In this document: piece after piece, positions 27,611-58,527 of the stretch
How positions within the stretch are numbered: position 1 is the stretch's first letter
How the letters are laid out: each line of letters opens with the position of its first letter
Source of the DNA: Bryoerythrophyllum caledonicum
Lineage: Eukaryota; Streptophyta; Bryopsida; Pottiales; Pottiaceae
Assembly (NCBI GenBank): GCA_963971425.1
Contig: OZ020523.1
Span: 19,139,105 to 19,203,104, forward strand
DNA length: 64,000 nt
Direction of reading: 5' to 3'
Notes under the pieces: generated by a model
The model's input: only the letters and a program-made list of their open reading frames with translations
Databases searched by the model: none
What the model was told of the DNA's origin: nothing
Translations under genes and position numbers: made by a program

Positions 27611-27717
27611 AACTTTTACTTTTTCTTCAAAATTCTCTACTTTTTGTATTTTAGGCTCGTGAACCAAGGCTCGCCGCTCTCGGCTCGCATGTCTACGCTC
27701 GCAAAATAGCCTCGTCC
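27610..27717 (-). repeat. Right terminal inverted repeat of MULE element 1
   Basis: On the minus strand the end reads GGCTATTTTGCGAGCGTAG, then AGAGCGGCGAGCCTTGGTTC. The hAT frame runs a few codons into it before stopping, which gives that fragment an artificial C-terminus. Confidence 0.75.
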
Positions 27718-34890: not shown

Positions 34891-35339
34891 CTTTTTTTCA
34901 CTTTCATCACAACTTTGCTGACCACCTTGTGGAATTCCTCCATTGTCCACTCAATTGACTTATCTAGAAAATTGCTCTTGAAACATCCGAGTTACATTCG
35001 AACGACATTATCAAACTGTTTCTGAATTAAAAAAAACACGATTACATTAATAAAGGATGCAATGAATGATAGGTGAGAGTGCACTAATGTTGAAAACTAT
35101 GATAAGAGCACGTCACGATATGGAGGCAATCAGTATTGGCAGACCCCAGATAGAGACTTGGAACATGCCTTACGGTCTCCGCTTGACGGCAGCCGCTTAG
35201 CTACGAGAATCTCCTAGACTGTAATTTATTTAAACTAACAACTGGTAGTATCAGCTACCTACAAAGGGAAGGTTGAATTTGAATGTCCTCTTGGAAGTCT
35301 GCTACTTCAGCAACCCATGGAAACAATCATACCTTTCTA

Positions 35340-35549
35340 AAGAGCCTTTTTTTTTTTTTTTAGAGAACTTCAAAGAAAATGTCAACATCTACACCTATGT
35401 AGACGCCAGTTCTAAGGTTTTAAAAAGGAACCTCTGAAGGAGCTGCCAACATTGGCACCCTTCTAGACGGCCTCTCCAATTTTTATTAAAAAAACCTCCA
35501 AAAGTAGAGCCGACATTGGTGCCCCTTAAAAGATCCCTTTATATGTATA
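35340..35549 (+). repeat. Start of left array arm, element 2
   Basis: GGAACCTCTGAAGGAGCTGC-type units matching 22870-23070, interrupted at 35549 by the TG...CA unit and resumed at 39396. Confidence 0.7.
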
Positions 35550-38500: not shown

Positions 38501-39390
38501 AGTTTCTTCGAAGAGAAGGCTGTTTTGTTAAGCTAAGGAGTGAACCGGCTTGGATCTTCATCAGGGGAGTGTCCGGAATAACTGGAGGAGGTTGCAAAGG
38601 TGTTCCTGGTCACCTTCTGAAGTCTGGAAGAACCAGGAGGAGAAGAGATCTATTGCAGAGGTGTTCCTGGTAGTCTCTAGGGCACGGAATAGTCCGTGTG
38701 AACCCGGATTCCGGTCCAAAACCGGAGTTTACCCCCACGATAGGAAAAGCCTGCTATGTGAGTCTAGAAGGAGTCCTTTCTAGTGAAACTACATCACTAT
38801 CTTCGTAGGGCTACAAAAGTGCTACCGGAACATCGTTGTAGTCGGGACATATCTTTGTGTGACCGCATCCGGAAGGCCTTCCGGATGTCGTGAGAGTTAC
38901 GTCTAGGAGCAACACCATACCACCGGTGAGTAGATTAGGGGGAAAGTAATTGTCCGGTCACTATAAACACCGGGGCAGTGGGTGTCTAGCCACTTAAAGT
39001 CACAAGGCAGTGGGGAATCCGGCCACTTACACAAAATAGGATCAGTGGCCTTCCGGTCACTCATTTAAACCTTCCGGAAGCCGCTCTGCGGAGGAACAGA
39101 GGTAAATCAAACTACCCTCCTGGTTTCCGGAAACCATTTCCGGGAACAACTGTATATACCTTCCGGAAACTAGTTCCGGAAAGTTTTGCTTAAGTTTCGG
39201 AATCCAGAAGGATCCGGAACTATTACGGAATAGATTAACTAACCTAGGTGATGAATAGACTAATGGTTTTGGGATAATTTGAAAGGATAAATAGATCTCT
39301 GTGGGAACGAAACCAGAGTGGTTTACTTTGGAAGCACTTAGTGACAATTGAGTGCATTCCGGAGGAATATTGACTCTACAAACTACGACA
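35550..39390 (+). mobile_element. TG...CA LTR-like unit with gag-like gene, copy 1 (3,841 bp)
   Basis: It begins TGTGGGAATCCGTTCCCACA (an 8-bp inverted repeat around 4 bases) and ends CTACGACA. GTATA flanks both sides (35545-35549, 39391-39395). The empty site is visible in MULE element 1 near 23063-23080. TG...CA ends with a 5-bp duplication are the hallmarks of an LTR retrotransposon integration product. No internal direct repeat marks two LTRs, however, and no pol gene is present. It may be a very long solo LTR that carries a gene, or an unusual gag-only element. TCCGGA/CCGGAA motifs are strikingly dense throughout. Confidence 0.75.
36064..37488 (+). CDS. Gag-like protein of the TG...CA unit, copy 1 (474 aa)
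   Basis: An open frame of 474 codons. Residues about 25-240 form a conserved domain with Arg-Ala-His-Pro-Glu-Thr-Trp-Gly-Ile-Pro, Ala-Asp-Pro-Lys-Glu-Gly-Tyr, Phe-Leu-Asn-Pro-Ile-Phe-His-Pro-Glu-Lys, Val-Asp-Trp and a Tyr-Leu-Thr-His-Leu-Tyr-Ala motif. A Pro/Ser-rich linker follows, then a coiled coil (about 325-420) and a helical end. The copy at 48787 shares this layout at roughly half identity by eye, yet both are open, suggesting selection on the protein. The domain resembles plant transposon-type gag-like domains (Transposase_32-like pattern), an inference from motif order only. A Pro-rich and basic tail continues in another frame to about 38051, so the original protein was probably longer. 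Confidence 0.65.
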   Translation: MVEGEPSRATRGTTTQPAVQRVVPIIPTDPEDKAVLKHYLTNMGCRGLLDVAWGAKEAKLVVELLGAPDNQYDGTIRAHPETWGIPKWQRTYSFSSRTVKTAEQNDDILGDEFTKQADPKEGYSSDDLRHQDAQIVVRFLNPIFHPEKPKRVVSKWATTILGSMREKFSVDWASLVSEMINRMVRGLQKSKRAGTPLPSYLTHLYAQHDVLAPDEQDAYELLLEIQNYGDPEPGDDNEVAEDVETSLPETIPQTQKRSRAVPRESTPGPSTSIQPTGEQPPQDPRSAPREGRIPPAEPPHLVGLDGPDLLELIQHAGWRAAIVCQSEARLREVLDGIRRELEVERVVEIPTAIQELQKNMLRLQALEIQQATIIRSRDKFAATCDKTFTALTASGKKLKEAEERADVAAQALTEVRAALTFLVDTVNRSLLFTYQLEKEGKLNRIQIIRFLHDHGKKMEKTWTWMQELVANLPT

Positions 39391-39879
39391 GTATATTAGA
39401 GGAACCTCCAAAAGAGCAGCCGACATTGGCATCCCTCAAGAGAACCCTTTAAATGTATATTAAAAAACCTCCAAAAGGGTAGCCAACATCGGCGCCTTCC
39501 TAGAAGACCCCTTAAATGTACATTAAAGAACCTTCAAAAGGATTGCCGACATCTTCTCTCTCCAAGAGGACCCCCTAAATGCATATTAAGTGAACCTCCA
39601 ACATGGCAGCCGACATCGGCGACCCTCATGAGAATCCCTTCAATATATATTAAGGGAGCCTCCAAAAGGGTTGTTGACATTAGCGCTCTTCTAATGGGCC
39701 CTGTAAATGTATATTAAGAGAACCATAAAAGGGTAGCCGACATCGGCGCCCCTCCAGAAGACCCTTTAAATTTATGTTAAGGAACCTCCAAAAAGGCAAC
39801 GGACATTGGCGATCCTCTACATGACCTCTTAAATGTATACTAAGGAAGCTTCTAAAAGGGCAGCCGACATTGGCTGCCT
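39391..39879 (+). repeat. Left array arm, element 2 (continued)
   Basis: Units of 60-65 bp with GCAGCCGACATCGGC cores, equivalent to 23070-23744 of element 1 but without the 93-bp insert. Confidence 0.75.
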
Positions 39880-40094
39880 CTAGAATGTGCAACACGCTCT
39901 GGAAAATTTGAAGATATTTCCGAAATGGTACTACACTTTATTATTGGACATTGTACAGATGAGTTATCAATGGATGAAGTTCTGAATCTCAGAACTTCAT
40001 CCGCAAATAACTCATTCGTACAATGTCCAATGATAAAATATAATACCATTTCAAAAATATCTTCAAATTTTCCAGAGCGTGTTGCACATTCTAG
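39880..40094. repeat. Central palindrome of MULE element 2
   Basis: The arms mirror about position 39987 (AATGTGCAACACGCTCTGGA on the left; CCAGAGCGTGTTGCACATT on the right). It is the same core as 23745-23964. The pairing is kept despite point changes. Confidence 0.85.
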
Positions 40095-40370
40095 AGGCAG
40101 CCAATGTTTGCTGCCCTTTTGAAGGTTCCCCTATTATACATTGAAGGGGTCCTGTAGGAGGGTGCCGATGTCGGCTACCTTTTTGGAGGTTTCCATAATA
40201 TACATTTAAGGGGTCCTCTAAGAAGTCACCGATGTTGGCTGTCATATTGGAGGTTCCCTTCATATACATTTAGAAGGTCCTCTTTGTAGGTGCCGATGTC
40301 GACTGCTCTTTTAAAGGTTTCCTTGATATACATTTAAGGGGGTCTTTTGAAAAGCACCAATGTTGTCTCC
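40095..40370 (-). repeat. Right array arm, element 2 (truncated)
   Basis: About four inverted units, then an abrupt join at about 40370 to a fragment resembling the element's Lys/Ala/Glu gene. In element 1 this arm is about 880 bp long. Confidence 0.7.
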
Positions 40371-40709
40371 ACGGCTGTTTTTGCCTCCACCTGCAGTTTC
40401 TTCGTGCGAGAAAAAATCTGGAAAGCTTTCAGACCAATCAAATTCACTGAGCATGGTCGGCCTGCAATGTAGCGTCTTGAGGTCAATCCAAGGAAAGGAA
40501 AAGACAAATCTAGCATCAAACTCTCGAGATATTATCACTTACACCGAGAATTGGATATTGCTGAGAGGACTACTGTGCGCCTCTAAAACATCTTCTTCGG
40601 CAATTGCCCTTTCTGCTGCTTCTCTGCCTTCACCTGCAAAGACAACGGCCATGGTGAGGAGGTTTGGCCCCCTTCCTCGCCATGGCCGTCATTTTGGCCG
40701 ACGACGGCC

Positions 40710-41672
40710 ATGGCGAGGAGGGCAACCGACAAGGAGTGCCTAGGAGAATTACTATTATGCCCAGAAGGTGTTCCTCAGAAGGTTCTTCCATTTGATGAAC
40801 TCATTCCAGTTCCGGACAAGTTCAAGCAGATGTCCTCCCCAAATATTTGGAATGAAGTAACCACTTTCCGATACGTGCGACGATTTGGAGTTATGGATAG
40901 TATAACAAAGTTGAGGGGCTCCAGTAGCTGGGCATTCATCCAGGAGAACCGCTTTCCTGGACAAGGAACAGAGACGAAGAAAGTTTATATTTTCAAGATG
41001 TCCGAGGTTGGTCCTCGATGCGGGGTTGATTTAGTAAAGCAAATGCATCCTGGAGGCGATTTGGAAGAGGCGTGGATGATGTTTGACCACGTGAAACGCG
41101 TTAAGGAGTGGACCACCATGCCCTGTCATGTTTACGATTTGACATTCTGTTGTGTTATGACAGTTGTTGTGTGCGATATGCAGTCAGAGGACGTTGATGC
41201 CCAACAACTTTTTTGGAAGATTCTCAATAATGTTGCAAAGAGGCATGGAATCTCTTACCCAAATTTTAAAGGATTCATGGCGGATAGCGCTCAGGCAAAT
41301 TGGAATGCGGTGCGTATTTTGTATGGTTTGGGCGACTCTGCAGTGCCAATGGACAATTGCGAGAGGACTTGCCTATTTCATTGGATGCAATTACACGAAA
41401 AGCACACTAAGGTAGACATTAGGGCCGACCTTCAGGACCAACACCGCCATCTGTGCAAGCAACACAAGGACTCCATCTCTTTGGAAGATGCCCAAAGTCC
41501 ATATTTGGAAATCCGAGAATGGTGGTTGTCTTCTGGTGCCGCAACAGAGGAGGCACTTCCAAGACTTGACTTGTGGCTTGCATTCTGGCATTTCAGATAT
41601 CGGCAATGGGGCGGATTCATGCAGCTAGAAAGTTCCTTTAGAATCATGTTTCTTTATATTTCTTTATTCTAA
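40710..41672 (+). CDS. MULE-like transposase, catalytic exon
   Basis: An open frame of 320 codons. Features fitting an RNase-H-fold transposase are a hydrophobic strand followed by Cys-Asp-Met-Gln-Ser-Glu-Asp, a Gly-Phe-Met-Ala-Asp-Ser-Ala-Gln-Ala-Asn-Trp motif, an Arg-Thr-Cys-Leu-Phe-His-Trp motif and a C-terminal Phe-Trp-His-Phe-Arg-Tyr-Arg-Gln-Trp-Gly. The last codons run into AT-rich sequence, so the true exon probably ends near 41620 and is spliced to about 42190. The 5' part before 40740 is Arg-rich and may be non-coding: it holds three copies of ACGGCCATGG, two in inverted orientation. Assignment to MULE rests on these motifs plus the TIR and duplication of the sister element. No stop codon interrupts it. 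Confidence 0.55.
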   Translation: MARRATDKECLGELLLCPEGVPQKVLPFDELIPVPDKFKQMSSPNIWNEVTTFRYVRRFGVMDSITKLRGSSSWAFIQENRFPGQGTETKKVYIFKMSEVGPRCGVDLVKQMHPGGDLEEAWMMFDHVKRVKEWTTMPCHVYDLTFCCVMTVVVCDMQSEDVDAQQLFWKILNNVAKRHGISYPNFKGFMADSAQANWNAVRILYGLGDSAVPMDNCERTCLFHWMQLHEKHTKVDIRADLQDQHRHLCKQHKDSISLEDAQSPYLEIREWWLSSGAATEEALPRLDLWLAFWHFRYRQWGGFMQLESSFRIMFLYISLF

Positions 41673-42189
41673 AAAGAGTTGATGGGCTTTAGCAGTGTAC
41701 ATTGCTTTGTACTCGGTTAGTTCATTTTACATTCTACAGTACTAAAACCCGCGTCGTTAATTCCTTTCACCAAATTCTAGTAGTGTCTCTGGCAACGTCA
41801 GTCTTACAATCTATTCTATACAAAATTAAACCTTTTCATTCTTTGTTGCCGGTATGTTTACATTGACAATTCATTATTTTTTATTGATTGTTTTTTGTAT
41901 TTCCCGGTTTTTTCCATCTTCTTTCCATTTCTTTTGGTTTTTGTCCCTTTCATTTCTTTTTTCTTTTTTTCTTTTCTTTTGGGCAGTTCATGTTCCCCAG
42001 GTTTTTCTCTATCCTTATTATAGGTCGCCGATATCGGCTGCCCTCCCATAGTAATACAATTGGAGTCATCTATTGTGGGAACTGAACGTAGCCGACATCG
42101 CCTGCTCACATGAGCAACGAAGTGCTTGTCATTCATTCGTATCCGCGACGAAGGTGTTTGTTCTTGACTAGTCTCGAGGCGTTTTCGCC
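41673..42189 (+). other. Probable intron and upstream part of transposase exon 2
   Basis: T-rich sequence (41840-41980), as in a plant intron, followed by a GCCGATATCGGCTGCC block. Its equivalent in element 1 is 25000-25340. No separate gene is seen. Confidence 0.4.
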
Positions 42190-42590
42190 ATTGCCCTCTG
42201 CTGAACCACGTCTTCCCTTGCAGTGTTGTTATCACTTTGAGTCTTTGACTGCACTTCGAACTCCAACTGCCAAATCATGCCTACTGAATCTTTCTCATTG
42301 CAGGATCTATCCGACGTCGAACTTGCGGAAAGGCCCTCGTGTAATTTGGCCAAGAGAGTCCACAGTAAATGGCTGCAACAGTCCGGCAAAAGACGGAATG
42401 ATCTCTATGTCGCCGCCGTTGATGACATGGTCCGCGCATTCATGCAGGTTGTTGCCTACTATTAGTTTCTTAAGGGTGAAAGACCGGAACTGGTCCTGAC
42501 AAGGAGGAACTCCGACTCCGTACTGCCCATCGAACCGCTCAGCGCATTGGAAATACCTCTTTCTTTCAATATCGCGGATGCGGCGACTTC
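42190..42590 (+). pseudogene. MULE transposase, C-terminal exon (truncated, element 2)
   Basis: The coding sequence includes Asn-Leu-Ala-Lys-Arg-Val-His-Ser-Lys-Trp-Leu-Gln-Gln-Ser-Gly, then Val-Asp-Asp-Met-Val-Arg-Ala-Phe-Met-Gln-Val, with TAG at 42463. It aligns with 25380-25830 in element 1. Similarity ends at about 42590, where the next retroelement starts. The frame happens to stay open into the retroelement, which could mislead automatic gene models into fusing the two. Confidence 0.5.
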
Positions 42591-42679
42591 TACTGCCGCT
42601 CCAACTACGACCTTGGTCCCACCGATTTCATCTACTTGTGGAAATACCATACACACTTTGGCGTATAAGGTGTTGTAGT

Positions 42680-43760
42680 TGCCAGTGTTTTCCGGTGTGG
42701 ACTTTCTAACACCGAGTTTTCAACCAATTGGTCTATTCCACTTGGCCGATAGTATGTTGGAGGGCAAGGTGCCCATGCCATTGTTGGAGGTATCGCAAGC
42801 AATGACGACACCACTCACCGTGGAGGATTTGGTGGCAATGCGGGCAAAGTTGGCGGCAGGGGCCATTTCCGCGTTTGAGGCCAATGCTACTTCCACACTT
42901 ATGGAGAAATCCTCCGGGGATCATTCCTTGATCTCAGGAGTGGCTTATTTGTTTGCCATTGCGGCCCGGTCGGCAGAGGAGCAACGCATTGTACGACCGG
43001 AGGTGGTACGCTTGGTAAACGATGACGGAGTCATGGTGGTTGATCGTACAAACAGCAACCCCATCCCAGCTACTCCCCTCTATATTATGTTGGACTCCGG
43101 AGCTGAGCCAGTAATGATTGACAATCAACTAGCCCAGGATTTGGGTTTAGTTGCTTTGGACCTCGAGCCTTGCCCATTTACGATAGATACATCGGTGGGG
43201 GAGAAGGCCATGGGCTATACCCGACACCTGTTGCAGTTGATGTTCGGTGTGGGATCTGGTCCATTGTTCTCCCACGTATCTCTCTAGTGCGCTCTGATTG
43301 GTGCCACCAACTACGACATTTTAGTGGGTCAGCAGGCGCTTTATTTCCTTGGTTTTGAGGTGGATAATTGGACGGAGGAGGTGTGGGTTAGGCCTAGGTG
43401 GTCTGCCGGTGATGGCAGAAAAGAGCTAATTCATGTTGTCTTCGTAGCTAGGGCGATGACTTCTACGGCGGATGCTATGTTTGGGTACAGTGCCTTGGCA
43501 TCATATTTGCCATGTGGTTCTACGCTTTTGGAGACATATGCTGTTATGTCGAGGGTAGCAAAATTACGTGAGCACCGACTAGTGGAGATTCCTGCACGTC
43601 ATTGCAAGGTTCCACTTCCTCCATGGGGAACTAAGTTGGAGTTGACATGTCGCACTCGGAAGATTGGAGACGCTCTTGATGCTCCACAACTTTTAGTGGA
43701 CTCTTCCACTCCGTTGTTGGCTCGCACTATTCAAAGGCGACCACCGGATGAGGGTATAAC
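42680..43760 (+). pseudogene. Retroelement protease region
   Basis: One frame, interrupted by TAG at 42676 and 43285. An aspartic protease motif Leu-Asp-Ser-Gly-Ala lies at about 43090-43104, followed by a hydrophobic Ile-Leu-Val-Gly flap-like segment near 43315. The preceding 130 codons are Ala/Thr/Glu-rich and may be the end of gag. No zinc knuckle is visible. Confidence 0.6.
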
Positions 43761-43761
43761 C

Positions 43762-44700
43762 CTCGTGAAGCTATTTGCCGGTATCAATACGGGGCTCACG
43801 GCTGTCTTAGAGGCCGAGCTCAAGGTATCCACGTGGATAGCCAATTGTGTCGCTCACCATCACATTCAGCGTCTTCTTGCGTCGTATCCAGAGCAATTAC
43901 CACCTTTTGCGATTTGAGGGTATTTTGGCAAGTTGTGACGTGATGTGACGTTGATCAGTGAGGATGATCTTTGCCGGTTAGGTCACGTGGACTTGGTGAT
44001 TGCCGGATGGCCTTGCCAAGGCTATTTACGGGCGGGCAGTGGACGTGGCTTAGATGATCCCGGGTCGGGTCTCTTTGCAGATTTGCTCAAGCTCATTCGA
44101 TGGTGGACTACCTACCAATCGACGCCACCGGGGTACATTTTTGAGAATGTACCCCCATTGGGAGATACACGGACGAAGGTGCGTGAGGATGGGGCATACA
44201 TCCATCACCTTCTTGGTCCCCCACGTTTGTAGATGCCGGGGCGTTGGGCTCTTCCGCCCATCAGTCACGTTGGATTTGGACCGACATTGCATCATCGGCG
44301 ACGCTCACCTCCGCACTTGCTCAAGTGCAACGGCCCATGCTCCGTGAGGTCAATGATATCTTGGACAATCACCGTGTTTCCATGGAGGTCTCTAAGGATG
44401 ATGAGCCACTATTGGCGGTGGTGGACCGTATTGGTTTCACTCGGGAGGCATTTCCCACGTTGATATGCTATCCAGGGTCTTTTGTCTTTAGGACACGTGG
44501 TCCAGGGATGGTTTAAGATTCTTCTTCCCAAACTTACGAGGAGCCTTGTGCCGATGAGAAGGAGCGGGCGATGGGCTTTTTGACAGGCACCACCGCCCCA
44601 CCGGATCTCTCTAAGGGCGAGCGTTGTTATTTGTTGGCTCAAGCCATTGACCTCAACATCCTCGGGTGGGTTTGTGGCCTCTGTTTTGTTGTGTAGCACC
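43762..44700 (+). pseudogene. Cytosine-5 DNA methyltransferase domain in the retroelement
   Basis: Conserved methyltransferase motifs occur in order. Motif I is Leu-Phe-Ala-Gly-Ile-Asn-Thr-Gly-Leu (43771-43797), the S-adenosylmethionine site. Motif IV is Ala-Gly-Trp-Pro-Cys-Gln-Gly (44002-44022), with the catalytic Cys codon at 44014. Motif VI is Glu-Asn-Val (44143-44151). Next comes a Ser-Arg-Trp-Ile-Trp-Thr-Asp segment as in motif VIII (about 44260-44285). A target-recognition-like Pro-Thr-Leu-Ile-Cys-Tyr-Pro-Gly follows near 44460, then an Arg-Ala-Met-Gly-Phe segment (44566-44580) and a closing Leu-Ala-Gln-Ala-Ile-Asp-Leu-Asn. Breaks are TGA at 43915 and 43936, a frame change near 44230, TAA at 44514 and TAG at 44694. 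All key residues are retained, so it was active not long before decay. It presumably methylated element DNA; that role is inference. Confidence 0.85.
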
Positions 44701-46030
44701 GTTTGAGTGACCATCCATACGCGTTGGGGCAAGACTCTAATGGTCAGGGGACAGCGGTGCGACATTTCACAGAGATCGAGGAAGCGGAGTTGCTATATTA
44801 ATTTGAAGAGGCATGCAACTGAGGAGCTTTGTGCTCACTGTCTCTTTGCAACCTTGGCCGAGGACTTTGATCGAGAGGATGTCCGGGATATCTTTGCCCG
44901 GTTGTATTATCACCACATGGGATTTCCTATAAATCTCGTGAGTGAGGAGTCTAAGGGCATCAATGCCCTCTCTACTACCAACTAGCAATCACCGGCCGTG
45001 CCGGTAAGCGGTAAGTCTTCAACAGTGGAGAAGGAGACCACAAAGCTTGATGATTGGCCTTTGGATTTGGGGCCACATCTTTCCGGTGTCGAGGCACAAA
45101 GGATACGAGCATTTAGCGGCGGTTTACACTATGGACCAAGAGCCGTGACCAAGAAAAATGGATTAATTCCATGGTCACACTTCATGGTCGCACTTTCATG
45201 GTCACACTTCAAAAAAATGTCACTTTTAAAGCCCTTGGGCTTTTCACTAAGTGTAAACCGAACTTGGACTCGGAGGATTGACCATGTACTAAAAAGTGGA
45301 CGTGCTGATTTTTTTAATGAATGCCTTAAAAAGGCAGTATTGCCTAAAATAACAAAGAAAATAAAACAAGCCAAAAAGATAAAAAGGGGTGGCTGCCATT
45401 GTATCTACAGTAACGTTGGGCCCCTCCAAAATGCAACCAATTTTTTTTTTAAATAATAAATAAATTTAAAAATAATAATAATAATCAATTTTAAAATAAT
45501 AAAACGGCATTTCGGGCCCATGGTCTCCTCGTTTCAGCAACGAGAGAACCCATTTAGCCTCTCTCACCGCAAAATCCGGGGAACCCTTCAACATTATCTA
45601 TTAGACCTATTTCTAGGCCTTTTGAGGACCTCAACTCCTTTGGTCACTTTTCTTTTTTCCTCGTAGTGTAAATCCAAGTCATCCCGGGACGAGTTCATGG
45701 AGCCAATCACAGATTTTAGAGGGTCATGGGACGAGTTCTTGGTCCGTAGTGTAAACCGCCTTTTATACGTTCGTACTGTAGTTGTTTTGCCTTTAATCTC
45801 CATAATTTGGAGGGCTACAAAGGCAAACCGATCACTTCCAATTGGAAGACAACCACCCGATCTTTTGATGACCATAGAAGCTCAGTGTCTTTGAGAAAGT
45901 TGGGGTTCAGACTCCTTGTCACGAGTTGTTGGCCGCCAGCTTGATTAAGCTCTTTAATAACAAGTATGCTTGTGCCACAGTAATGCCATCAAAAAAGAAT
46001 ATCTTTGGCAACTGGACAGAGAAGCGGATG
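44701..46030 (+). other. Linker between methyltransferase and reverse transcriptase, with insertion
   Basis: Bases 44707-44985 form an open stretch (Cys-Ala-His-Cys motif near 44825) without an assigned domain. After TAG at 44983 come a Thr/Ser-rich linker and a Leu-Asp-Leu-Gly-Pro segment at 45060-45075. The inverted-repeat insertion follows, and coding-like sequence returns after about 45870. Confidence 0.5.
45117..45755. mobile_element. Inverted-repeat element, about 640 bp (MITE-like)
   Basis: The left end GGCGGTTTACACTATGGACC is mirrored by the right end (minus strand GGCGGTTTACACTACGGACC), with similarity for about 33 bp. Inner copies of the GTGTAAACC motif at about 45253 and 45667 give each end a nested structure. 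The interior is AT-rich with no transposase. The flanking duplication is unresolved. Confidence 0.6.
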
Positions 46031-48260
46031 TGTGGGGATTATAGGCCGGTCAATCGCAAGACAAAGTCAGACTAGTATCCCATGCCCACATCGAAGGAGT
46101 TGTTTGATGCGGTGGGCCACGCTAGAGTATTTAGTACTTTAGATTTGCGGTCTGGTTATCACCAGTTACCATTGATGGTGGATGACCGGGGGAAGAGTGC
46201 ATTTTGGGGAGTTGATCAAGATAGGAGAGATCAACTCTATCATTGGAAGTTTCTTCCATTTGGCCTCAAGAACGCACATGTTGAGTTTTAGAGGGTGATG
46301 GACCGGAAGTTGACCGGTTTACCATTTGCCCAATGCTACAGTGATGATGTTATCATCTTTAGTAGCAGCCCACAGGAGCATGTAAGGCATCTTGAGGCAG
46401 TATTCAGGAGGTTACGGAAGTGTAAATTGCGCTTGCACCATAGCAAGTGCAAGTTCTTCCACGACCGGTTGCCATAGTTGGAACATATGATTGTTCCAAG
46501 GGGTCTTGGCGTGCAGCAGGCCAAGGTAGATGCGTTGTAGAAGATCCTTGCCCCAATCGACGTGTCACGACTTCGAGCTTTTCTTGGCTTGGCAAATTAC
46601 TATTACCGGTTTGTAAAGAACTTTAGCTTGATTGCTAGGCCATTAACTATTCTCACAGGAAAATATCAACCATGGACTTGGGGACGGGAGCAGCAGCAGG
46701 CGATTGCTACTTTGAAGCTAAAGCTCGATTTAGAGCCTGTGCTACGGCGTTCAGATGCTACACAACCCTTTCAGGTGCACACAGACTGGAGTGCTGTGGG
46801 ACTGGAGGTTGTATTGGCTTAGAAAGAGGATGAAAGACAGGAGTACGTTGTGGCGTTTGCTTCTAGGAGCAACAATAATGCGGAGTCCAACTATTTGTCC
46901 TCAATGGGAGGGCTTTGGCTGCGGTTTGGGCCATAGTCTATTTTAGGCCCTTTTGTATGGGAAACGTTTTACGTTGGTGACCGACCAATAGCCTTTGAAG
47001 TGGCTCATGGAGTCGGACAACCTTACTGGCAAGCTTGCCAGGTAGGCTTTGTTGCTTCAGGACTATGACTTTGAGGTTGTACATCGCGCCGGCAACAAAC
47101 TTGGATGCGGATGATCTATCTCGCAACCCAAGTCCTTTGGAGGAGGATTTGACTGGTACGAGGTGGCATGGAGACTGTGGCAGGGAGTCAGTCTCGGGGT
47201 GGCATACAATTGCTTACCTTATGTTGATGTCTGGGTCCGCATCCACGTCGCCTAATGTAGTAACGGATGAGAAACCGGATAGGGCCCAAGTTGTTAGCGA
47301 TGTGTTGGAAGATGGTCCAGTCTTGCACAAGCTACAACATGCGATACTTCCCCGAGCTCTTTCTGCAATGAAGGGTGATTGGATTGGTCGCAGAATAGCA
47401 AGATTCTGGACGTTGGGAGAACGGCCTTCTATTTTGGGTGTGGCTACATAGGATTAGGCACATAGTTCCAAGGCCTAATCAGAGGTCTTCATTGGTACGG
47501 CAAGTACAGAAAGACCTAGGACATTTTGGTGTACGACGGACTGATTCTATGTTGCGCAGCCAGTACTGGTGGATTGGCATGTATCAACAGGTCGCCATAT
47601 ATATTTATTGGTGTGAAGTATACGATCATGTTAGATCCAGCTTCAACACCTTGTCACCGCAGTTGCAGCCTTTGCCCATTATGGGGCTAGGATACTCGTG
47701 GTCTTTGGACTTTGTTGGTCCGCTTGTCATGACTCTACGCGGAGCCAAGTTTGTCTTGGTGATGGTGGTGCATTTCAGCAAGTGGATTGAGCTCATGGCT
47801 CTTCCGCAGAGATCTTTAGAGTTGGCTGCCATGGAAATCCTCGATCGGGTGTTGGCTCATTTTGGAGCCCGAACTAAGATTTTAACTAATCAGAGGTGTG
47901 AGTTCCTTGGGGCTTTTGAAGCTTTGTGTACCAAGGCTTAGATTGACCATTGTACCACTTCTCGGGATCACCCGGAAGTAGTCGGTTTGGCAGAGTTTGT
48001 GGTTTAGACCGTGAAGCGGGGTCTACGGAAGTGTGGATTATTTCACAGTGGCCACCGTGATTGAAATCTGATGATATCATATATCGCAATGCATTACCAA
48101 TTTAGCCGGCTAACTTCATTGGCTGCTTCCAGTCCGCATCCGTTGTTGTATAGGCAGGAGTCAATTTCACCAAGTTCCGTTTGGAAAAAGTTGGCTTTGA
48201 TTGTGGATTTGGATGATCCAGAGGTGTTTGCCCAATGTTTACGGGATTGAGCAAAGTTCT
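46030..48260 (+). pseudogene. Reverse transcriptase, RNase H and integrase region of the retroelement
   Basis: RT: Cys-Gly-Asp-Tyr-Arg-Pro-Val-Asn (about 46035), Leu-Asp-Leu-Arg-Ser-Gly-Tyr-His-Gln (46140), Leu-Pro-Phe-Gly-Leu-Lys-Asn (46255) and the catalytic Tyr-Ser-Asp-Asp box (about 46338). The Leu-Arg-Ala-Phe-Leu-Gly-Leu-Ala-Asn-Tyr-Tyr connection is at 46567. The RNase H starts with His-Thr-Asp-Trp-Ser (about 46783). The integrase has Leu-Gly-His-Phe-Gly-Val, Trp-Ser-Leu-Asp-Phe-Val-Gly-Pro (47700) and Leu-Thr-Asn-Gln-Arg-Cys-Glu-Phe (47881), where the expected second catalytic Asp is Asn. In-frame TAG occurs at 46073, 46289, 46475, 46538, 46820, 46989, 47043, 47939 and 48005. The frame is cut at 48261 by the TG...CA unit and resumes at 52150 in phase. 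Confidence 0.85.
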
Positions 48261-48261
48261 T

Positions 48262-51200
48262 TGTGGAACTTCGTTCCCACATGGTGCCGGAAGTTAACCT
48301 TAAATTCCGGCCAAAACAAAAAAATTAGTTAATTAGTTACAATAGTGCGTGCTAGGATACAGCCTATAGTCGTCATGTAATAATAAAGTCGGATGGATCT
48401 GACTGCAAACCCTAATTAAGCCTAAGCTGCTAAAAACGAAGCCGGAGCAGTTATCGGAATTCCGGGTCAGTCAGTTATCCGGAATCGTCAGCCGGAACTG
48501 TCACCGTCAGCTGTCATCATGATGCCATACTAACGGCCAGACTACTTATGGCAGGGATTTGGTGGGATACTCTTTCTTCTCACTTCGTCTTCACGTGTCT
48601 AGGTTTTCTCTCTCTCTTTCTTCCTCTCTCGCTTCCTCTCTTACTCTTACGGTTTTTCGAACCGCTTGCCGTTAGGATTTGAAACTTAGACGGTTAGAAC
48701 GGACGTGCGTTCGTTAGAGAGGATTTTTGGGAGGTTGGTGCGTGTAGGGACAACCTTGAGAGAGTGTAAGGTGATAGGCAGGTTTCATGAAGTCTGTGCC
48801 GATGGCAAAGAAGAAGAGGACGGATAGGGATGGGCACGGCCGGAGAGACGAGGAGCCGGCAGTTGCACTCCCTCCCTTAACCCGCGTTCTCCCAGAAATC
48901 CCAGAAGACGTGGACGAACTCAGCATGCTAAAGGATAGCCTGAAGTATATGGGTTGTGAGGGTTTACTCGAAGTTCTTTGGGGCATCCGGGAGGAGGTCT
49001 ACGTCCGGGAACTGATAGGCACCCCGGACGAGAAGTACAAGGGGTTGATGAGAGCCCATCCGGAAGTCTGGGGAGTCCCGGAGTGGTCTCAGGCGTACAA
49101 TTTTCGGGCCGGCCGTACTAAGGTGGTGGAAAGGCGGGACGAATTTCTGGCGAAGGAATTCGGAGGACCAGCGGACCCTAAGGATGGCTACAACCTCCAA
49201 GACCTTCAGCACTTGGATGCCGAGCTCGTGCTAGGATTTTTAAACCCTATCTTCCATCCGGAAAAGTCGAAACGGGTAGTGGCGAAGTGGATTTGCACTT
49301 TCCTCGGAGCACTCCGGGGGAAGATCGTCGTCGACTGGGAAACATTGATGATCGACCTAATCAACCGTCTCGTGGCCAATCTCCATAAGGTGAAGAAATC
49401 AGCAACACCTCTGGCCTCGTATGTGATGCACCTCTATGCTCACCACCAGCAGCTAACTCAGGCGGAAATCCGGAAGTACGACGAAGTCCTTAACTTCCAA
49501 AGGTATGGAGGGGACGAGTCGGAGGAAGAAGAGTCCAGAGGGAAGGAGCCTGTGCCGGAAGCAGCAACAACAGGCACTCCAGAAGGCTGGAAGGCTCCAA
49601 AGAGACCTCAAGGGAAGGAGCTCGAGGCGGAGAATCCAGGCATCCGCAACTCCTCCGCATCATCCGGAGAAGACGAGTCCGGACCCTCAGGAGGGACCAG
49701 CCAGAAGAGGAGGAAGATTGACCAGGACGGCTGCAAGGGTGAGCTCAAACTAATGGATGAGCTCACACGCGATATTGGCTGGAGAGTTGGGCTCCTTAAG
49801 GAGACCAACTACATCATCACCACTACTGTGGAGCAAATCTTTCGGAGTCTGGATGTCGACCGACTGGAGGACACCATCAACAAGGTGGAGGAACTCTGGA
49901 GCCGGGAGATCGGCACCAAGGCGATGCACACCCAGATATCTTCCCTGTACAAGGCCACTAACGATATGGAGAAGAAAGTGAAGCAATACCTCGCAAAGGC
50001 AGCTCTAGCGGTGACGGCCCAGAAACTGGCTGAGGCAAAGGCCAACGCTTCCACGGCTGCCTTGATAGAGGTCCGGGCGGCCTTGGAGTTTTCCGGTTGA
50101 TGTAATCAACCGAAGTTGGCTCTTCACCGAATTGGTGGAGAAGAAGGAGAAGGTCACCAGGGCCAACATCATCCGGTTCTTCCTTGATCCAGTGGAGAAG
50201 ATGGGTCGGACCTGGGAGCAGATGAAGCTGTTGGTCGACAACATCACCGAGGAGCTTCCAGAAGACCCAGCAGCACTTGGATTGGAAGGCACCCCGACGC
50301 CAACACGAACTACGGCCCCTCCAGAACCACCTACCAAGACCACTCCAACTCCGGGCACCTCAGCGAATCCAGAATCTCTCGACACTCCGTCGCCACGGAC
50401 CCCCACGGAGCATATCGTACCTCCCAATCCAAGTACGAGTGAGATCCTGAAGAAGCTTCCGGATCTATTGTCGCCGCCCAACATGCGTCTGCCAGATCCT
50501 CCGGTGGAAGGCGACCTCCCAGCTCCACCCAGGTCCGTGTCCCGGAGATTGGCGTCCTGACCAAAGAGTCCGTCCGAAAGCTACAGGGACTTGGTCCAGG
50601 AGACGAGGTCAACTTCCGCGACGGAACTGCGAGCACCTCTCATTCCGACAGGATCACCGGAACAGCCCCCACCACCGCCGGATGCCCGGACTCCGGTGGC
50701 TAGTATTACTCCAGCGACCGGACCATCGACCCGGAAGACCAACCTTACGCCTACAACGTCAAAGAAGGCGAAAGGCAAGCAGCGTGCTCCAGTGGAGATC
50801 TCTCCATCCCGCAGGAGTGGGAGAAATCGGGGCCCAAGTGCTCCGACTTAGGTTAGTTAGGATTTGTATTTCTTTTCAGGCTTAGATTCCGGATCAACAG
50901 CGATTAACGATGGGGCCCCAAGTGCACCCGGTTGCTGACGGAATCAACGGCCAGTTTTGTAATTAGAGTAGGAATTCCGGAGACGGAACTATTCCGAGAT
51001 TTTAGGATCTGTGATCCGATCTGAAACTTTTCCGGATTTCTCGGATCTTTTAGATAAGATCCAGCGGATTTCTCGTAGGATAGCTAGGAGGAAGGTTAAG
51101 TTAGTAGGGACTTAGTTAGTACTTAGTAGAGAGGGGTTGGGAAAAACCTTTTCATCTTGTTCTTCTGACTTGGAAATATACATTACCTATTTGTACTAGA

Positions 51201-52149
51201 CTTGCTACCTTGTGTCTTGGTGTGATGTGTGGAACTTGTGAGCGACGGATCCATTCTTGTGGGTGCGGTTGTATAAGTGATTCTTCCGGAACAGTGTAAC
51301 TCAATTGTTTTGCCGGAGGGGGAAGCTATCTAGGTCGGTGTCAGGAGATCGTCTAGGAGAGCTGGAGAGAGCTATTGCAGAAGTGTTCCTGGTAGTCTCT
51401 AGGGTTCGGAAGTAGCCAGGAGGGGAAGAGATGAACTGCAAAGGTGTTCCTGGTAATCTCTAATTCACGGAAGAATTCGTATTAAACTGGATTCCGATCA
51501 TTACCGGAGTTCACCCCTAAGATAGGAAAAAGCCTGACACCAATATCTAGACGGAATACCCATAGTGAGCGGTGAGCCTTTGTTCCGGAGAATTGCAACC
51601 GTACCCACCGGAATGTCGTTGTAGTCCGGACTTGTCTCTGTGTGACCGCATCCGGAAGGCCTTCCGGATGTCGTGAGAGTCTACGTCTGGCATCAACAAT
51701 CAAATCACCAGTTAGCAGAATAGGGAGAGTGGTGTTCGGTCACTATAAGTTCCGGACAGTGGGTGCCTAGCTACTTTAAGTCACAGGGCAGTGGAAAATC
51801 CAGCCATTTATACAAAACAGGATCAGTGGACTCCGGCCACTCATTTAAAAACTCTAGGAGACTCTCTAAGGAGGAACAGAGATAAATCAAACTACCCTTT
51901 AACGTTCGAGAAAGTACATTCCGGATACGGCGGTACCACATCCGGCTCCGGAAGGATCCGGATCTAACCTACGAAAGTTTAGACGATAGCTAACTCGTAA
52001 ACAAATTGTTGTGATAAGTTTAGTAATCCGGAGTATTTGGAAAAGAACATTAGGTCTCTGTGGGAACGAAACCGGAGCGGTTACTTTGAAAAGCACTTAG
52101 TGACGATTGGGTGCATTCCGGAGGGATACTGTCTCTACGAACTGCAACA
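48262..52149 (+). mobile_element. TG...CA LTR-like unit, copy 2 (3,888 bp)
   Basis: It starts TGTGGAACTTCGTTCCCACA and ends CTGCAACA. TTCTT flanks both sides (48257-48261 and 52150-52154). Removing the unit and one TTCTT restores the retroelement frame across Ala-Lys-Phe-Phe-Lys-Arg. The end segments match copy 1: the first 50 bases, GTCGTTGTAGTCCGGAC-like blocks, and the last 90 bases from TGTGGGAACGAAACC. Again there is no second LTR and no pol gene. Confidence 0.8.
48787..50560 (+). pseudogene. Gag-like protein of the TG...CA unit, copy 2 (one frameshift)
   Basis: Open for 437 codons to 50100. An extra base near 50090 shifts the frame, and the frame opposite 50100-50560 continues the homology (Ile-Arg-Phe segment, then Pro/Thr-rich). 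The N-terminal domain keeps the motifs of copy 1: Arg-Ala-His-Pro-Glu-Val-Trp-Gly-Val-Pro, Ala-Asp-Pro-Lys-Asp-Gly-Tyr, Phe-Leu-Asn-Pro-Ile-Phe-His-Pro-Glu-Lys, Val-Asp-Trp-Glu-Thr-Leu and His-Leu-Tyr-Ala. An Asp/Glu/Lys-rich linker and a coiled coil follow. A basic Arg-Arg-Ser-Gly-Arg tail is in yet another frame near 50805-50850. Apart from these shifts the gene is intact. Confidence 0.6.
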
Positions 52150-52154
52150 TTCTT

Positions 52155-52700
52155 CAAGCGGGCTATGACCATGGCCATGGAGAACTTATCCATGGCTCAG
52201 CACCGTGACACCTTACGGTACGCTTGTATTCGTAGCGGTGCCTACCAACCTTAGTTGCGACGTTCCCTACGGAGGATTATGTTTATCTATAGTGTAAGGC
52301 CCCCACGACGTTGGACGTCAAGGTTGGGCGCATTATTCTTTGCGTGATGGATGTATTGCCCTGTAGCATCTTGTTGCTAGAAGGCAAAGATGACCGGGAG
52401 TGTCGAGAGCACTCCAAGAATTGCGTTTCCTGTCATTTATCCATTGATGGCTCTATTCATCCGGGGTTGGCCGTTGTGCCAGACGGTCTTCCGTGTTTTG
52501 TGTGTGGTGAGAAGAAGAGCGCGGCTACCATGTTGCTATAGACCATTGTCAGCATGGTTGGCATATGGCTTGCTTGACGATGCCTCTTTCTACTCTACCG
52601 TCCGAGGATTGAACTTGCCCTTATTGTCAGAGGTCTTTGAGCCACGTTTCATCCGATGAAACGGCTTGAATTCCTCGTGGACTTGTCACTGTGTAGTGCA
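52155..52700 (+). pseudogene. Retroelement C-terminus with PHD-finger remnant
   Basis: After the TG...CA unit the integrase frame ends, and a Cys-rich region follows: Cys-x2-Cys at about 52435 (His-Ser-Lys-Asn-Cys-Val-Ser-Cys), then Pro-Cys-Phe-Val-Cys-Gly-Glu at 52493. After a one-base frame change near 52535 comes Asp-His-Cys-Gln-His-Gly-Trp-His-Met-Ala-Cys, then a stop where Trp is expected (TGA), Thr-Cys-Pro-Tyr-Cys. The Cys/His spacing and the Gly-Trp-His-x2-Cys motif are those of a PHD finger, a histone-tail reader in other proteins. Its role in the element is unknown; guiding integration or chromatin targeting is one possibility. Confidence 0.6.
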
Positions 52701-52992
52701 TTGCCATCCAGTTGAAGTTCTTGGTTTTAATTCAGGGATAGGCAATGTGAAGATTGATCAAGGAATTGGCAACAAAGTTGCTTAAGGCAATTAAAGATGG
52801 GGCTCACATTACACCCGGCCTATCTTCTCTTTGTTACTTCTTCATATGCTTATTGATTTGGCTACGGTAACAGATCTAACTAATTGCGTACAGTTGTTGT
52901 AGCAACATCACGGTGGAGTTTAGTTTTGTTAGTGTTGTTTGGTCCAAGCTCAATAGAAGGTATTTTAATCCACTAGGGGAGGCACTTGAGGG

Positions 52993-53438
52993 TGTATTAT
53001 ATATACTTGTTGAAGTATATGTTTTTTCTATTATTTGATGTTGGTTTGGACTCTCGATCTGTTGTGGTTATCGATCTTTCTTTACACGACAGCTGTCACG
53101 GGACGTGGCGCCGAGGGCCTCTATGTATTGTAGTTTTAGCGTAGATTAGTTTGTTACTATTCTATAGGTGTTTAGGGACGTATGGCGGGCACCGCATTCA
53201 TCCGTGGATGTTTTTCATCCACTTAGGGTTGTATGCGCATACGTATAGCGCCGCACACGTTTTTGACTTGACGTCTTTGTCAAGCCAAGCTTGTGAATGA
53301 GTTTGAGAGTGTTAGTGATTACTTTTGCTTGTAACTGATTGTTTATCATTATTAAAGGCTCCGCATTCTCTTATATTACTTGCACTCGTTGATTATCCCT
53401 TTGTGGAATACGAGATGCTTGACTACGCGTGTGATTCA
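52993..53438 (+). repeat. Retroelement LTR (probable 3' LTR)
   Basis: It starts TGTATTATATATACTTG after a purine stretch (CTTGAGGG) and ends near GTGATTCA. It shares with 31110-31462 the segments TTGACTTGACGTCTTTGTCA and GGCTCCGCATTCTCTTATA. The exact ends are tentative. Confidence 0.55.
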
Positions 53439-53449
53439 CTATTATTCTT

Positions 53450-53570
53450 TGAGGGTATACTACATATATTTGTTTTAGTGTATGTTTTTTGTTTATTTAA
53501 TGTTGATTAGGACTCTTGATCTGTGGTGGTGATGGATCTTCTTTACACGACACTCCGGTTACATTCTCCA
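53450..53570 (+). repeat. Second, partial LTR start
   Basis: TTTGAGGGTATACTACATATATTTG onward resembles 52985-53100 for about 115 bp, including the CTTTACACGACA block, offset by about 465 bp. This tandem LTR remnant is consistent with recombination or a nested insertion. Confidence 0.5.
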
Positions 53571-55222: not shown

Positions 55223-58200
55223 CTACAAGATGTCGACGCCCTCGTCGCTTCCGTGAAGCTTCTCTTTGACAACACCTCTGATGGCGACCAGCTCCGCCGC
55301 CACTTCCTTCATGGACGGCCGGTCGTGCCGGCGACTGGCCAAGCACCTGGACGCAAGCTCCGCCACTCCGTGGATCTCCTTCATGGTCCTCTCATCCTCA
55401 TCGCCAAGCTGAGCGTCCATGATCGCTTCCACGCTCCCCTTGCGGATGAAAGGCAACGCCATGGCCGCCAGGTTGACGTCCTCCGCGGCCCGCGCGAAGT
55501 CGAGTGGCTTCAGGGACGTGATGAGCTCTAATAAAACGATTCCGAAGCTGTAGACGTCGCTCTTGTCGGTCAAGTGGTAGCTGTGGAAGTACTCCGGGTC
55601 CAGGTACCCCGGCGTCCCCTGCACCGCCGTGGAAACGTGGGTGGCGTCCGGCTTCACCAGCCGTGAGATTCCGAAGTCCGCGACCTTCACGTTGAAGTTG
55701 TCGTCCAGGAGAATGTTGGAGGTCTTCATGTCGCGGTGGTAAATGGGCGGGTTTGCTGCAGAATGCAGGTATCTGCATCAGGCCACGGAAGACAAGGTTA
55801 TAAAGGCTGCTATGATGCTCTTCTTTTGTGACCCATCATTAATCTTTGATCCAACCAGTCAGTTGTGAAGTCACCCGAAGTTTGCGTAAGATACCCCTCT
55901 TTTATTCCATCTCACGGAAATTCTTTCTTCTCTCTCAAAGACGGCTAAAACTACTTTGACTTGAGAGCTCTTCCACACTTAATTGAAAAACCCCGAGATC
56001 TTCTTTTGATCTTATAACTATTCAGAGTGAGGATACAGCAGTAAAAAGAAGGGGTGTCTTAATGAAACGTTAGGCGACTACTGTGTCCGGTAATGTGCAA
56101 GCAGAGCTCAGATTATGGACATAATTTGTCTCGCTACTCGATAAGGTTATTTCTCGTAACTGCTTGCACATCACCCAGACCACAATGAAAGCAACGCCCT
56201 GCATTGGACACGAAAAGCAGGAGAATGTCTTACCGCAAAGCTTCGGCGGTCTCCATGGCGATCTGCAGCCTCTTCTCCCACTTCAAGTGTCGCTTTCCTT
56301 GCAAATGCTGCAACAGGTCCCCGTTGGCCACATACTCGTACACCAGCATGGGCACCTCAATCTCCAGGCAGCACCCGTGCAGCCTCACCAGGTTGCGGTG
56401 GTTCACCTGCGACAGCACCGACACCTCGTTCAGGAACTGCTGCGAGCCGTTCACGTCCACCTTGTTCGTCTTCTTGATGGCCACTTCCAGCCCACCATCA
56501 AGAGTGCCCTTGTAGACCGTGCCGAAGCCGCCCGCGCCGAGCTTTAGGTCCTCTGAGAAGTTTCTGGTGGCCCTCTCCAGCTCTCTCAGGGTGTACATCA
56601 AAGGTTGCTGTGACAAGGTTGAGAAGAAGGCCAGCGCTTGGATGTTCCTCCGTGCGAGCCGCTGTGTTTTCCTTCTCCTTTGCGCTCTGCAGCACCATGC
56701 GCTTGTGCAAATTCCTAGAAGAAAAAGGACTAGACTCGCGGAGGAAATGCCTGTTCAAGAGCTTGTTAATTAGATGGAGCTTTTCATTATTGATTGACAG
56801 TTCAGAGAGCTCTCTTCAGAAACATGTTAGGTATTTTGAAACTCAAAATCTCATTTCGGCACCCATAGAACTGCTTAAGTAAGGAATTATCTCCATATGA
56901 ACTATACTGGTTTTCATGTTGGCTATTTCCTCTGAGAGGGATAGAGTGACGTACTACATAGCAAGTTCCCATGAAGAGACTGACAAAGAGCAGCAAAACT
57001 AATTGGGTTTATATAGAGCTAGTAAGGAACTATGAGTTACCTGCAATCATCGCCACGTGAGTGTCATGTCTAGTGCACCTTGTTCCATTTTTGTATCCGT
57101 CTCCGATAAACCCCGGAGGACAAGAGCAGCCGTAAGCGCCTGGTGTGTTGGTGCAGATGGCATTTGCAGCACAAGAATTTGATGTGGCATTCATTCCACA
57201 TTCGTTTATTTCTGCACCATCAGATTGTGTGAGTACATCCTACAACTGGCAGAGAACATTTTTATAGAAACAAGGGAAAACCAAAAACTATTTCGTTGAT
57301 CATGAAAACAGCTGCGACAAAAGGGATATTCGTGAAGTCACCCAAAGCTCGAATAAGATACTCCTTCCGTTATCATTTTGAAATACCCTCTAAAAAGTTC
57401 TCAGATAATCTAAAATCAGCTCAGAGTAGAGAAAGGCAGCTGACATTCACAGCATCTCATGCAAACTCTTTCTTCACCCTCAAACACAGCTAAAACGACT
57501 CTGACTTGAAAATAGAGACCACCAAGCTCTCCTACATCTACAGGGAACAGATAGTAGTACGATAAATCAAAAAGGTGATTTTACGAATAACTTCGAGTGA
57601 CTTCACGAATAACTTTTAAATGACCAGAACTTCATTGAAAAAAGTTCCTTGGTGTCCATGCCATAAATGAACAGGACAGAATGTTAGCGTACCAAAGCAA
57701 CCAGTGCCATTGCGGTAGCCATCACCTTCGTACCCTTGATTGCAATGGCAGGTGTGCCCAAGTTCGCCGTTGTCCAAGCACCGAGAATTCTCAGAACATG
57801 TGCTACTCTTGTTGCAGGAACCTCCAACATACCACAACAGCTTCACGCCCCAACTGCCCAACCCAAACCAATCAAGATCTCTTGTGACATAGGTCTCAGG
57901 GTAAATGATGCTCCCAAAGCCCATTTCCAAAGGGGGGTTGAAGGGGTTCACAATATTGTGAGTGACGTTGATGCCGATCCTCTTGTGATTGCCTAAGATA
58001 TTCCTGCTACAACAGGGGTAAATATCACAATAACGTTGTGCATTCGTCGAAACAATGTCACAACCGTTGGTGCAGCTACTCCCCACGCTTACTTCCAGAG
58101 TGAAAGTTGCTGTCACGTTGCAACCGTAGCCAAACATGGTATTCTCTCCAGACACCACAAAAGGTGAAGCTTCAGCAATTTCGAAACTCACCGCTGAGCC

Positions 58201-58527
58201 GCTGACATTGGCTCTCAGATTGGCCCCGGCACTGATGATCAGGGAAGACGACCTGACTTCCAAGACCTGGTACTGCCCAGAAAGAGTGGACAGAAGTAAC
58301 ACTGGGTGGCTCGCATCACTGGTGCAGTTGAGGCGATACTGCGGAAGCCCACACCCTGAGGTGAACCCAAATGGGTGCTGGACTGTCACATTTCCACATC
58401 TGCTTGAACACCCCAAGGAAACTACAGGATGAGCTGTAAGTATCAACAGAGCAGAAAAGACGGCCAGATTCTCATACCTCCTGCAGAGGATTTGTTGTCC
58501 AATCCTATGAACAAAAAAGCCAGCCAT
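55223..58527 (-). CDS. Wall-associated receptor kinase-like protein, WAKL14-like (678 aa, 4 exons)
   Basis: Exons 58527-57693, 57211-57041, 56714-56234 and 55772-55223 join in phase across GT-AG junctions into 678 codons without stops. A hydrophobic N-terminus (about 20-38) is the signal peptide. A galacturonan-binding-like region starts Cys-Ser-Ser-Arg-Cys-Gly-Asn-Val. EGF-like repeats lie at about 237-278 and 281-328. A short hydrophobic stretch is at about 330-343. The kinase domain begins near 390 with Leu-Gly-Ala-Gly-Gly-Phe-Gly, Val-Ala-Ile-Lys, His-Arg-Asp-Met-Lys (RD type), Ala-Asp-Phe-Gly and [10 protein letters not shown]. Family role: cell-wall pectin sensing and kinase signalling at the plasma membrane. 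The membrane segment is shorter than usual; another exon in intron 2 (near 56990-56950, Leu-rich) is possible but breaks the phase. Confidence 0.85.
55870..55985. repeat. Intron 3 repeat (pair with intron 1)
   Basis: GAAGTCACCCGAAGTTTGCG...TTCTTCTCTCTCAAAGACGG resembles 57330-57515 in intron 1 of the same gene, including GGCTAAAACTACTTTGACTTG. It is a small dispersed repeat or an old intron duplication. Confidence 0.45.
57330..57515. repeat. Intron 1 repeat (pair with intron 3)
   Basis: Carries GAAGTCACCCAAAGCTCGAA and CTCAAACACAGCTAAAACGA, related to the intron 3 block. No coding potential. Confidence 0.45.

Follow-up and report, generated by a model that had tools for sequence, protein, structure and literature searches.

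Genomes silence transposons by methylation; in the elements considered here, the transposons themselves bear a methylating enzyme together with a histone reader, both under purifying selection between subfamilies. Some DNMT3 are located in retrotransposons, according to passages of PMC12344493, and the closest published relative of the present element is KnitGypsy-Dnmt3 of Klebsormidium nitens (de Mendoza et al. 2018, PMC5890265), to which the passages on it attribute a Dnmt3 in Pol, DIRS-like repeats (Figure 4 legend) and purifying selection on the methylase. The corresponding passages on SymbioDIRS-Dnmt3 of dinoflagellates likewise give a Dnmt3 in Pol, with A-coding-B-A-B repeats and more than one domain order (PMC5890265). 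The present work concerns 64,000 nucleotides of the moss Bryoerythrophyllum caledonicum (assembly GCA_963971425.1, contig OZ020523.1, positions 19,139,105 to 19,203,104 of the forward strand; hereafter the window), in which a first-pass annotation, invoking precedents from charophytes and dinoflagellates that do exist in these two systems, had placed a Ty3-type retroelement with its own C5 methyltransferase and a PHD finger. We consider, with a probability of about 0.7, that the window holds an old, dead member of a Ty3-type (metavirid-like) family of the KnitGypsy-Dnmt3 kind. One green alga had already provided the general outline of this kind, and the present genome adds another member, with many open-frame copies; we found no published description of its PHD partner, of its leaky stop codon, of 4-bp target duplications at split repeats or of two methylase positions in Ty3 elements. 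Among the papers listed in literature searches, none describes, by title and start of abstract, a Ty3 element with both a methylase and a PHD, and PMC5890265 was the sole one on such elements; its main text mentions a PHD for neither system, although its Figure 4c may show one, and its examined parts give neither the leaky stop nor the 4-bp duplications for KnitGypsy-Dnmt3.

Pfam profiles were run on frame translations of the window, with X at stops. The order protease, C5 methyltransferase, reverse transcriptase (RT), RNase H and integrase, as first annotated, was recovered on the forward strand at 42.55-48.26 kb, in several frames and with many stops. The methyltransferase (43729-44708, by tblastn of the domain of the sister copy L009) is broken by stops and frameshifts and matches DNA_methylase (PF00145) above the cut-off at about 43768-44175 (E=2.4e-8, 34.2 bits for a cut-off of 22), and the motifs that had been read in it are present (I-like LVKLFAGINTG, IV WPCQG and VI FENV). 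Also above their cut-offs are the RT (45836-46537, RVT_1, E=1.2e-23), the RNase H (46667-47078, RT_RNaseH_2, PF17919, E=2.9e-15) and the zinc-binding domain of the integrase (Integrase_H2C2, E=1.1e-9 to 4.9e-11), which is followed by the catalytic rve domain and the start of the C-terminal domain (together 47438-48261). The rve match (26.9 bits for a cut-off of 32.6; E=6.1e-6 to 1.8e-4) and that of the aspartic protease (PF13650, E=0.0019), which follows the end of gag in 42554-43422 (tblastn part 43027-43422), are below theirs. The PHD finger is weak by itself in the window, where it gives E=0.14 with PF00628, under the cut-off, and is separated from the integrase by a 3.9-kb insert; it is, however, clear in sister copies (E=2.3e-9 and 1.3e-9), to whose PHD the window aligns in two frames with stops (52455-52538 and 52532-52627). 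Comparison with the sister copy L016 places this PHD in pol, since pol is broken at 48262-52149 and resumes with the remaining C-terminal domain of the integrase (52150-52439) and the PHD that ends it (52455-52627). The same comparison led us to reject 38561-39390 and 51341-52149 as LTRs (long terminal repeats) of an element with the PHD outside it, as these are the ends of two inserted 3.9-kb element copies.

The extent first given to the element, 42600-53438, had to be revised: it probably starts at 31108, with the 5' repeat and the start of gag, and ends at 53552. The probable 5' repeat A1 (31108-31487, forward strand) is 79-83% identical by blastn to repeat A of L016, L017, L018 and L023, the gag frame start (32302-32466, forward strand) is 85% identical to positions 1622-1787 of L016, and both probably belong to the same element as the 3' part. 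Behind the gag start, about 10 kb of other sequence (32467-42553) consists of a 3.08-kb repeat, a first copy of the 3.9-kb element and 64-bp tandem repeats; for about 1.5 kb of gag the window gives no match. The 3' end comprises, on the forward strand, repeats B1 (52986-53091, after a G-rich, polypurine-like run), A2 (53090-53438) and B2 (53449-53552, ending in CACGACA), with a palindromic B1/A2 junction, GACAGCTGTC, at 53088-53097 that occurs nowhere else in the window. The coding parts are 82-86% identical by blastn to L016, L017, L018 and L023. The window copy, first treated as a working element, is dead, being full of stops and frameshifts and interrupted by inserts at 48262-52149 and 45116-45761, the latter a 0.65-kb insert with inverted ends and a TTTA duplication that resembles a miniature inverted-repeat transposable element.

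Sister copies were sought in the 437-Mb assembly that contains the window. PF00145 scored at least 123 places, among which L001 (218 bits, 370-aa frame) differs from the others, and 20 copies of 9-9.5 kb were fetched, picked mostly for long open frames and thus not a random sample. A typical copy has an ORF1 (open reading frame) of about 1,360 aa (gag, zinc knuckle, protease and methylase) and an ORF2 of about 1,041 aa (RT, RNase H, integrase and PHD), so that the methylase lies in the gag-protease frame, upstream of a conserved stop, and the RT frame is separate. Using the eight domains of L009 as queries, all eight were found in order in 18 of the 20 fetched copies, so that the refuting condition first named, copies without a methylase between protease and RT, did not overturn the anatomy; the exceptions are L020, without RT and RNase H, and L026, with no match after RNase H. 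Among the matches listed, a same-strand PHD tail follows 2-20 kb downstream at 93 of 116 methylase places, with a spacing of 3029-3072 bp at 84 of the 93, and a methylase lies upstream of 113 of the 150 PHD tails; the unpaired places may have their partners in copies beyond the matches listed and some may be real losses. Given the decay of the window copy, the inserts that split it and a PHD that alone falls under the Pfam cut-off, one could suppose that unrelated methylase, Ty3 and PHD fragments had come together by chance in a repeat-rich window, but the complete order in 18 of 20 sister copies and the constant spacing refute this, and we give it practically no weight. Integrase-PHD tails gave at least 150 matches to that of L009 and at least 150 to that of L016, which represent two families; the two lists can hardly be the same places, because identity is at least 90% to L009 and at least 81% to L016 and the tails themselves are about 60% alike.

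Gag and the pol order protease-RT-RNase H-integrase, with rve and H2C2 domains, place the family in Ty3/Gypsy (Metaviridae). Its repeats are arranged otherwise. All five copies examined have, in place of two identical direct terminal LTRs, the split layout A1-coding-B1-A2-B2, which is DIRS-like; within any one copy the repeats share 94-100% identity. The sequence GACAGCTGTC stands at the B1/A2 junction, and the element ends in TGTC and GACA. Ten copies were examined for target duplications; the piece fetched for L024 did not show its left end, and the nine copies with both ends read all have identical 4-bp duplications, which, with TGTC/GACA termini, is LTR-element-like. DIRS and PAT elements are not known to make target-site duplications. 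The A-B-A-B direct repeats, as in SymbioDIRS-Dnmt3, could nevertheless be taken to indicate a DIRS-type element, with a tyrosine recombinase and an integrase-like part that has decayed or been borrowed; we regard this as very unlikely, given the 4-bp duplications, the rve domain in open frames of L009 (E=3.5e-13) and L016 (E=7.9e-14) and the lack of any Pfam match to a tyrosine recombinase at E<=0.5 in the ORFs of these two copies, whereas SymbioDIRS-Dnmt3 has such a recombinase in place of a DDE integrase.

A G-rich run lies directly before B1 in five copies and in the window, and plus-strand priming there would give a B-A repeat at each cDNA end. Inspected by eye, without a tRNA comparison, the contexts examined show no TGG motif (tRNA primer site) immediately behind A1. 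Joined B-A cDNA ends cut at the palindrome would yield A-coding-B-A-B with recessed CA ends; the integrase would thus cut the junction GACA-GC-TGTC of a circular or repeat-joined cDNA, leaving recessed CA-3'OH ends to be joined to target DNA with a 4-bp stagger. Spumavirus integrase has been described as cutting the palindromic junction of two-LTR circles.

The methylase of the element is, by sequence, Dnmt3-like. Its closest chain in the PDB is DNMT3A (E=2.2e-15), then DNMT3C/3B, DRM2 (3e-9), HhaI (3e-8) and DNMT2 (0.003), and neither DNMT1 nor chromomethylases are among the 51 PDB chains that match it at E<=0.01. In 45 aligned relatives, the Cys and Gln of motif IV are at least 90% conserved and the Glu of motif VI is invariant. 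The catalytic motif is ECQ rather than PCQ in 19 of 102 methylase segments, the pattern having missed 22; Glu-Cys-Gln methylases include the proteins P0033, P0034 and P0147. Between the L009 and L013 subfamilies, the ratio of nonsynonymous to synonymous rates (dN/dS) is 0.057 for the methylase (96 pairs), 0.029 for the RT (48 pairs) and 0.125 for the PHD (36 pairs), all computed from open-frame copies only and thus biased toward intact copies; methylase and PHD are under purifying selection between subfamilies, as reported for the methylase of KnitGypsy-Dnmt3. Within families the methylase ratio is 0.18-0.25, partly above the published Ka/Ks bound of < 0.2 for that element.

The junction between the two ORFs was examined in 27 loci (L002-L028), of which 25 could be aligned. 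In 24 of these, from both families, a single in-frame TAG parts the ORFs in the context CAA/CAG/AAG-TAG-CAA-(C/T)CA, and in L014 it is replaced by CAG. The two unaligned loci are L002, which is short, and L015, where the stop seems to have been deleted, as a single open frame of 1517 aa holds methylase and RT at a shorter distance. The window retains AAC-TAG-CAA-TCA at 44980-44991 (TAG at 44983-44985, forward strand). UAG-CAR-YYA is the tobacco-mosaic-virus type of leaky stop, and the TAG context has been conserved between families that share only about 54% identity in the methylase, which suggests that it is functional. Gag, protease and methylase would thus be made in bulk, and readthrough by a minority of ribosomes would add RT, RNase H, integrase and PHD, so that the writer of DNA methylation would go with Gag and the chromatin reader with Pol.

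In chromoviruses, also Ty3/Gypsy elements, a chromodomain stands behind the C-terminal domain of the integrase as a chromatin-reader module. The present element has its reader at the same position, and differs in the methylase, in the split repeats and in the nature of the reader, as no chromodomain was matched by Pfam at E<=0.5 in the ORFs of L009 and L016 and the PHD takes its place. Of the eight zinc ligands of this PHD, six do not vary across 25 aligned sequences and the other two are conserved to at least 90%. Its sequence neighbours in the PDB include PHF12, MLL3, KDM5B, CHD4, KDM5A, UHRF1 and ATXR5, and several of these proteins are readers of the unmodified H3 tail. A model of the integrase C-terminus with the PHD had a modest mean predicted local distance difference test score of 67.5 (69-84 for the PHD blocks) and a predicted template-modelling score of 0.37; its 50 best matches in the PDB include the PHD parts of UHRF1, ATXR5 and BAZ2A (E near 1e-3 to 1e-4), with entries titled as complexes with unmodified or plain H3, and also the acyl-lysine readers DPF3 and MOZ. 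The tudor-plus-PHD chains of PHF1 and UHRF1, at the top fold ranks, were rejected as full-length homologs (root-mean-square deviation 12-13); lone PHD fingers come next in rank. Readers of H3K4me3 have a cage Trp two residues before the His. Among 153 PHD segments (137 homologs and 16 from the present genome), 151 fitted the pattern, and none of these has Trp at this place, where almost all have Gly. The PHD would tie the integration complex to nucleosomes, and its likeliest target would be H3 tails without K4 trimethylation, an assignment from sequence and fold class to which we give a little less than an even chance.

Protein searches found 68, 388 (of which the best 120 were listed) and 46 proteins, those with 68 and 46 having scored only the roughly 8,000 candidates with most shared words. 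The relatives come from Marchantia, Riccia, Sphagnum, Closterium, K. nitens, Cymbomonas, Haematococcus and Volvox, with many metagenome proteins; none is by name a cellular Dnmt3. By precomputed Pfam annotation, PF00145 and PF00628 occur together in 14 of the 68. Passages of PMC6338049 state that methylase transposons are absent from land plants, which the matching Marchantia and Sphagnum proteins contradict. Eight domain profiles separated three layouts, two with a methylase and one, that of P0120 and P0165, without it. In type I, the methylase stands before the RT, as in the present genome, Marchantia, Closterium and K. nitens, whose protein P0228 (KFL_009030040) has the order protease-methylase-RT-RNase H-integrase, as here; P0228 is partial and stops where a PHD would begin, and its nearest relative in the pol tree, P0102, carries one. 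In type II, the methylase stands between RNase H and integrase (30 rows from RT to PHD, plus shorter rows); the order reads RT-RNase H-methylase in Cymbomonas P0067 and methylase-integrase-PHD in Volvox P0150.

Trees of pol and of the methylase were quick ones, rooted by choice on Closterium and without cellular enzymes. In the pol tree (84 rows, own copies thinned), 31 type II rows fall in one group of 34 with P0120, P0165 and P0182, with a support of 99 in the Shimodaira-Hasegawa-like approximate likelihood ratio test (SH-aLRT), the inner forks of this group being partly open. The methylase tree, from which segments under 250 aa were dropped and for which Closterium, Marchantia and own rows were first thinned, likewise unites 52 type II or probable type II rows (SH-aLRT 99). 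On the pol tree the methylase changes position once (39 typed rows, scored under a simpler model after removal of three long-branched rows), and the PHD changes six times, partly perhaps because of partial proteins. P0120, P0165 and Haematococcus P0072 share the integrase-PHD pol of the present element, with no methylase seen; P0072 is a partial protein, and P0120 and P0165 are nested in the methylase-bearing clade, an apparent loss of the methylase.

We tentatively propose, at odds clearly below even, a green-lineage Ty3 clade with a matched writer-reader pair set on the two sides of a leaky stop, integrating via a palindromic circle junction, between the LTR and DIRS routes; the writer would have moved once in pol and, apart from a few losses, would have been retained all the way from prasinophytes and Volvox to liverworts, and the pair would represent an old, selected strategy of methylating the element's own DNA and choosing its chromatin rather than an oddity of K. 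nitens. After reverse transcription, the Dnmt3-like enzyme would methylate CG sites, either in the newly made cDNA or in the copy just inserted; for the cDNA itself, the substrate put forward in the discussion of self-methylation in PMC5890265, we rate the chance somewhat below one half. It is possible, though we think it unlikely, that the enzyme acts after integration and not on cDNA, marking the new copy for silencing or camouflage as a self-restraint that harms the host less, which is among the options named in the same discussion (PMC5890265). At sites where four relatives agree, the window copy has transitions at 121 of 566 CG, 79 of 395 CHG, 153 of 1565 CHH and 102 of 2501 A/T positions, a pattern that would be the footprint of CG and CHG methylation and that agrees with such a role; ordinary host silencing of plant type would leave the same footprint, however, and nothing ties it to the element's own enzyme.

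Several observations weigh against our main reading of the element. There is no family-specific CG depletion (observed/expected 0.54-0.84 at eight sister loci and 0.80 in the whole window), and CG depletion was dropped as a sign of self-methylation because these values are uninformative. The methylase domain of K. nitens gave no methylation in yeast, a result which its authors, in the passage concerned, call inconclusive (PMC5890265). The outer flanks of the window copy have no target duplication and a 94-bp methylase-domain piece (31014-31107), without continuation beyond the element's other side, abuts A1, so that the joining of 31108-32466 to the 3' part is no more than probable. For the PHD, dN/dS within families is high in small samples (0.66 for 15 pairs and 1.25 for 1 pair). 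In some readers of unmodified H3K4, the loop ahead of the third Cys carries an acidic residue; 63 of the 151 PHDs have none there, which makes the ligand uncertain. Both domains moreover seem dispensable, as P0120 and P0165 have no methylase, nor room for one in the protease-RT or RNase H-integrase intervals, and Closterium P0190, P0191 and P0211 have no PHD. These proteins are what would be expected if methylase and PHD were tolerated passengers of an old capture, retained as parts of a polyprotein; the low dN/dS between subfamilies, the conservation of at least 90% at catalytic and zinc residues (45 and 25 aligned sequences) and the occurrence of relatives in a liverwort, a moss, charophytes, a prasinophyte and Volvox make this improbable. 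With open-frame copies and a wide distribution, what was an isolated report from one alga becomes a testable family, for what a parasite gains from DNA methylation, for the steering of integration by a PHD and for the action of a DDE integrase on split-repeat cDNA.

The window holds other mobile sequences and some genes. The 3.9-kb element, perhaps a non-autonomous LTR-like element, is present in two copies (48262-52149, forward strand, and 35549-39390) with TGT..ACA ends and 5-bp duplications (TTCTT and GTATA, respectively), and its ORFs of 437-474 aa (48787-50100, 437 aa, and 36064-37488) are 34% identical, with no Pfam match above the cut-off. A 3.08-kb repeat occurs at 20003-23078 and 32467-35550 (91.5% identity), and arrays of 63-64-bp repeats, partly inverted, lie at 22.9-24.5 kb and 39.4-40.4 kb, either at the right ends of this repeat or no more than about 4 kb from them. 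Pieces of a hAT-type transposase (Dimer_Tnp_hAT 1.1e-9, DUF659 1.7e-23) are found on the reverse strand at 27693-30320. Finally, ORFs at 5230-6339 (forward), 16567-18507 (reverse) and 57616-58527 (reverse), two with a RING finger (67% identical in part) and one of the GUB_WAK_bind/EGF type, represent plant-type genes near the repeats.

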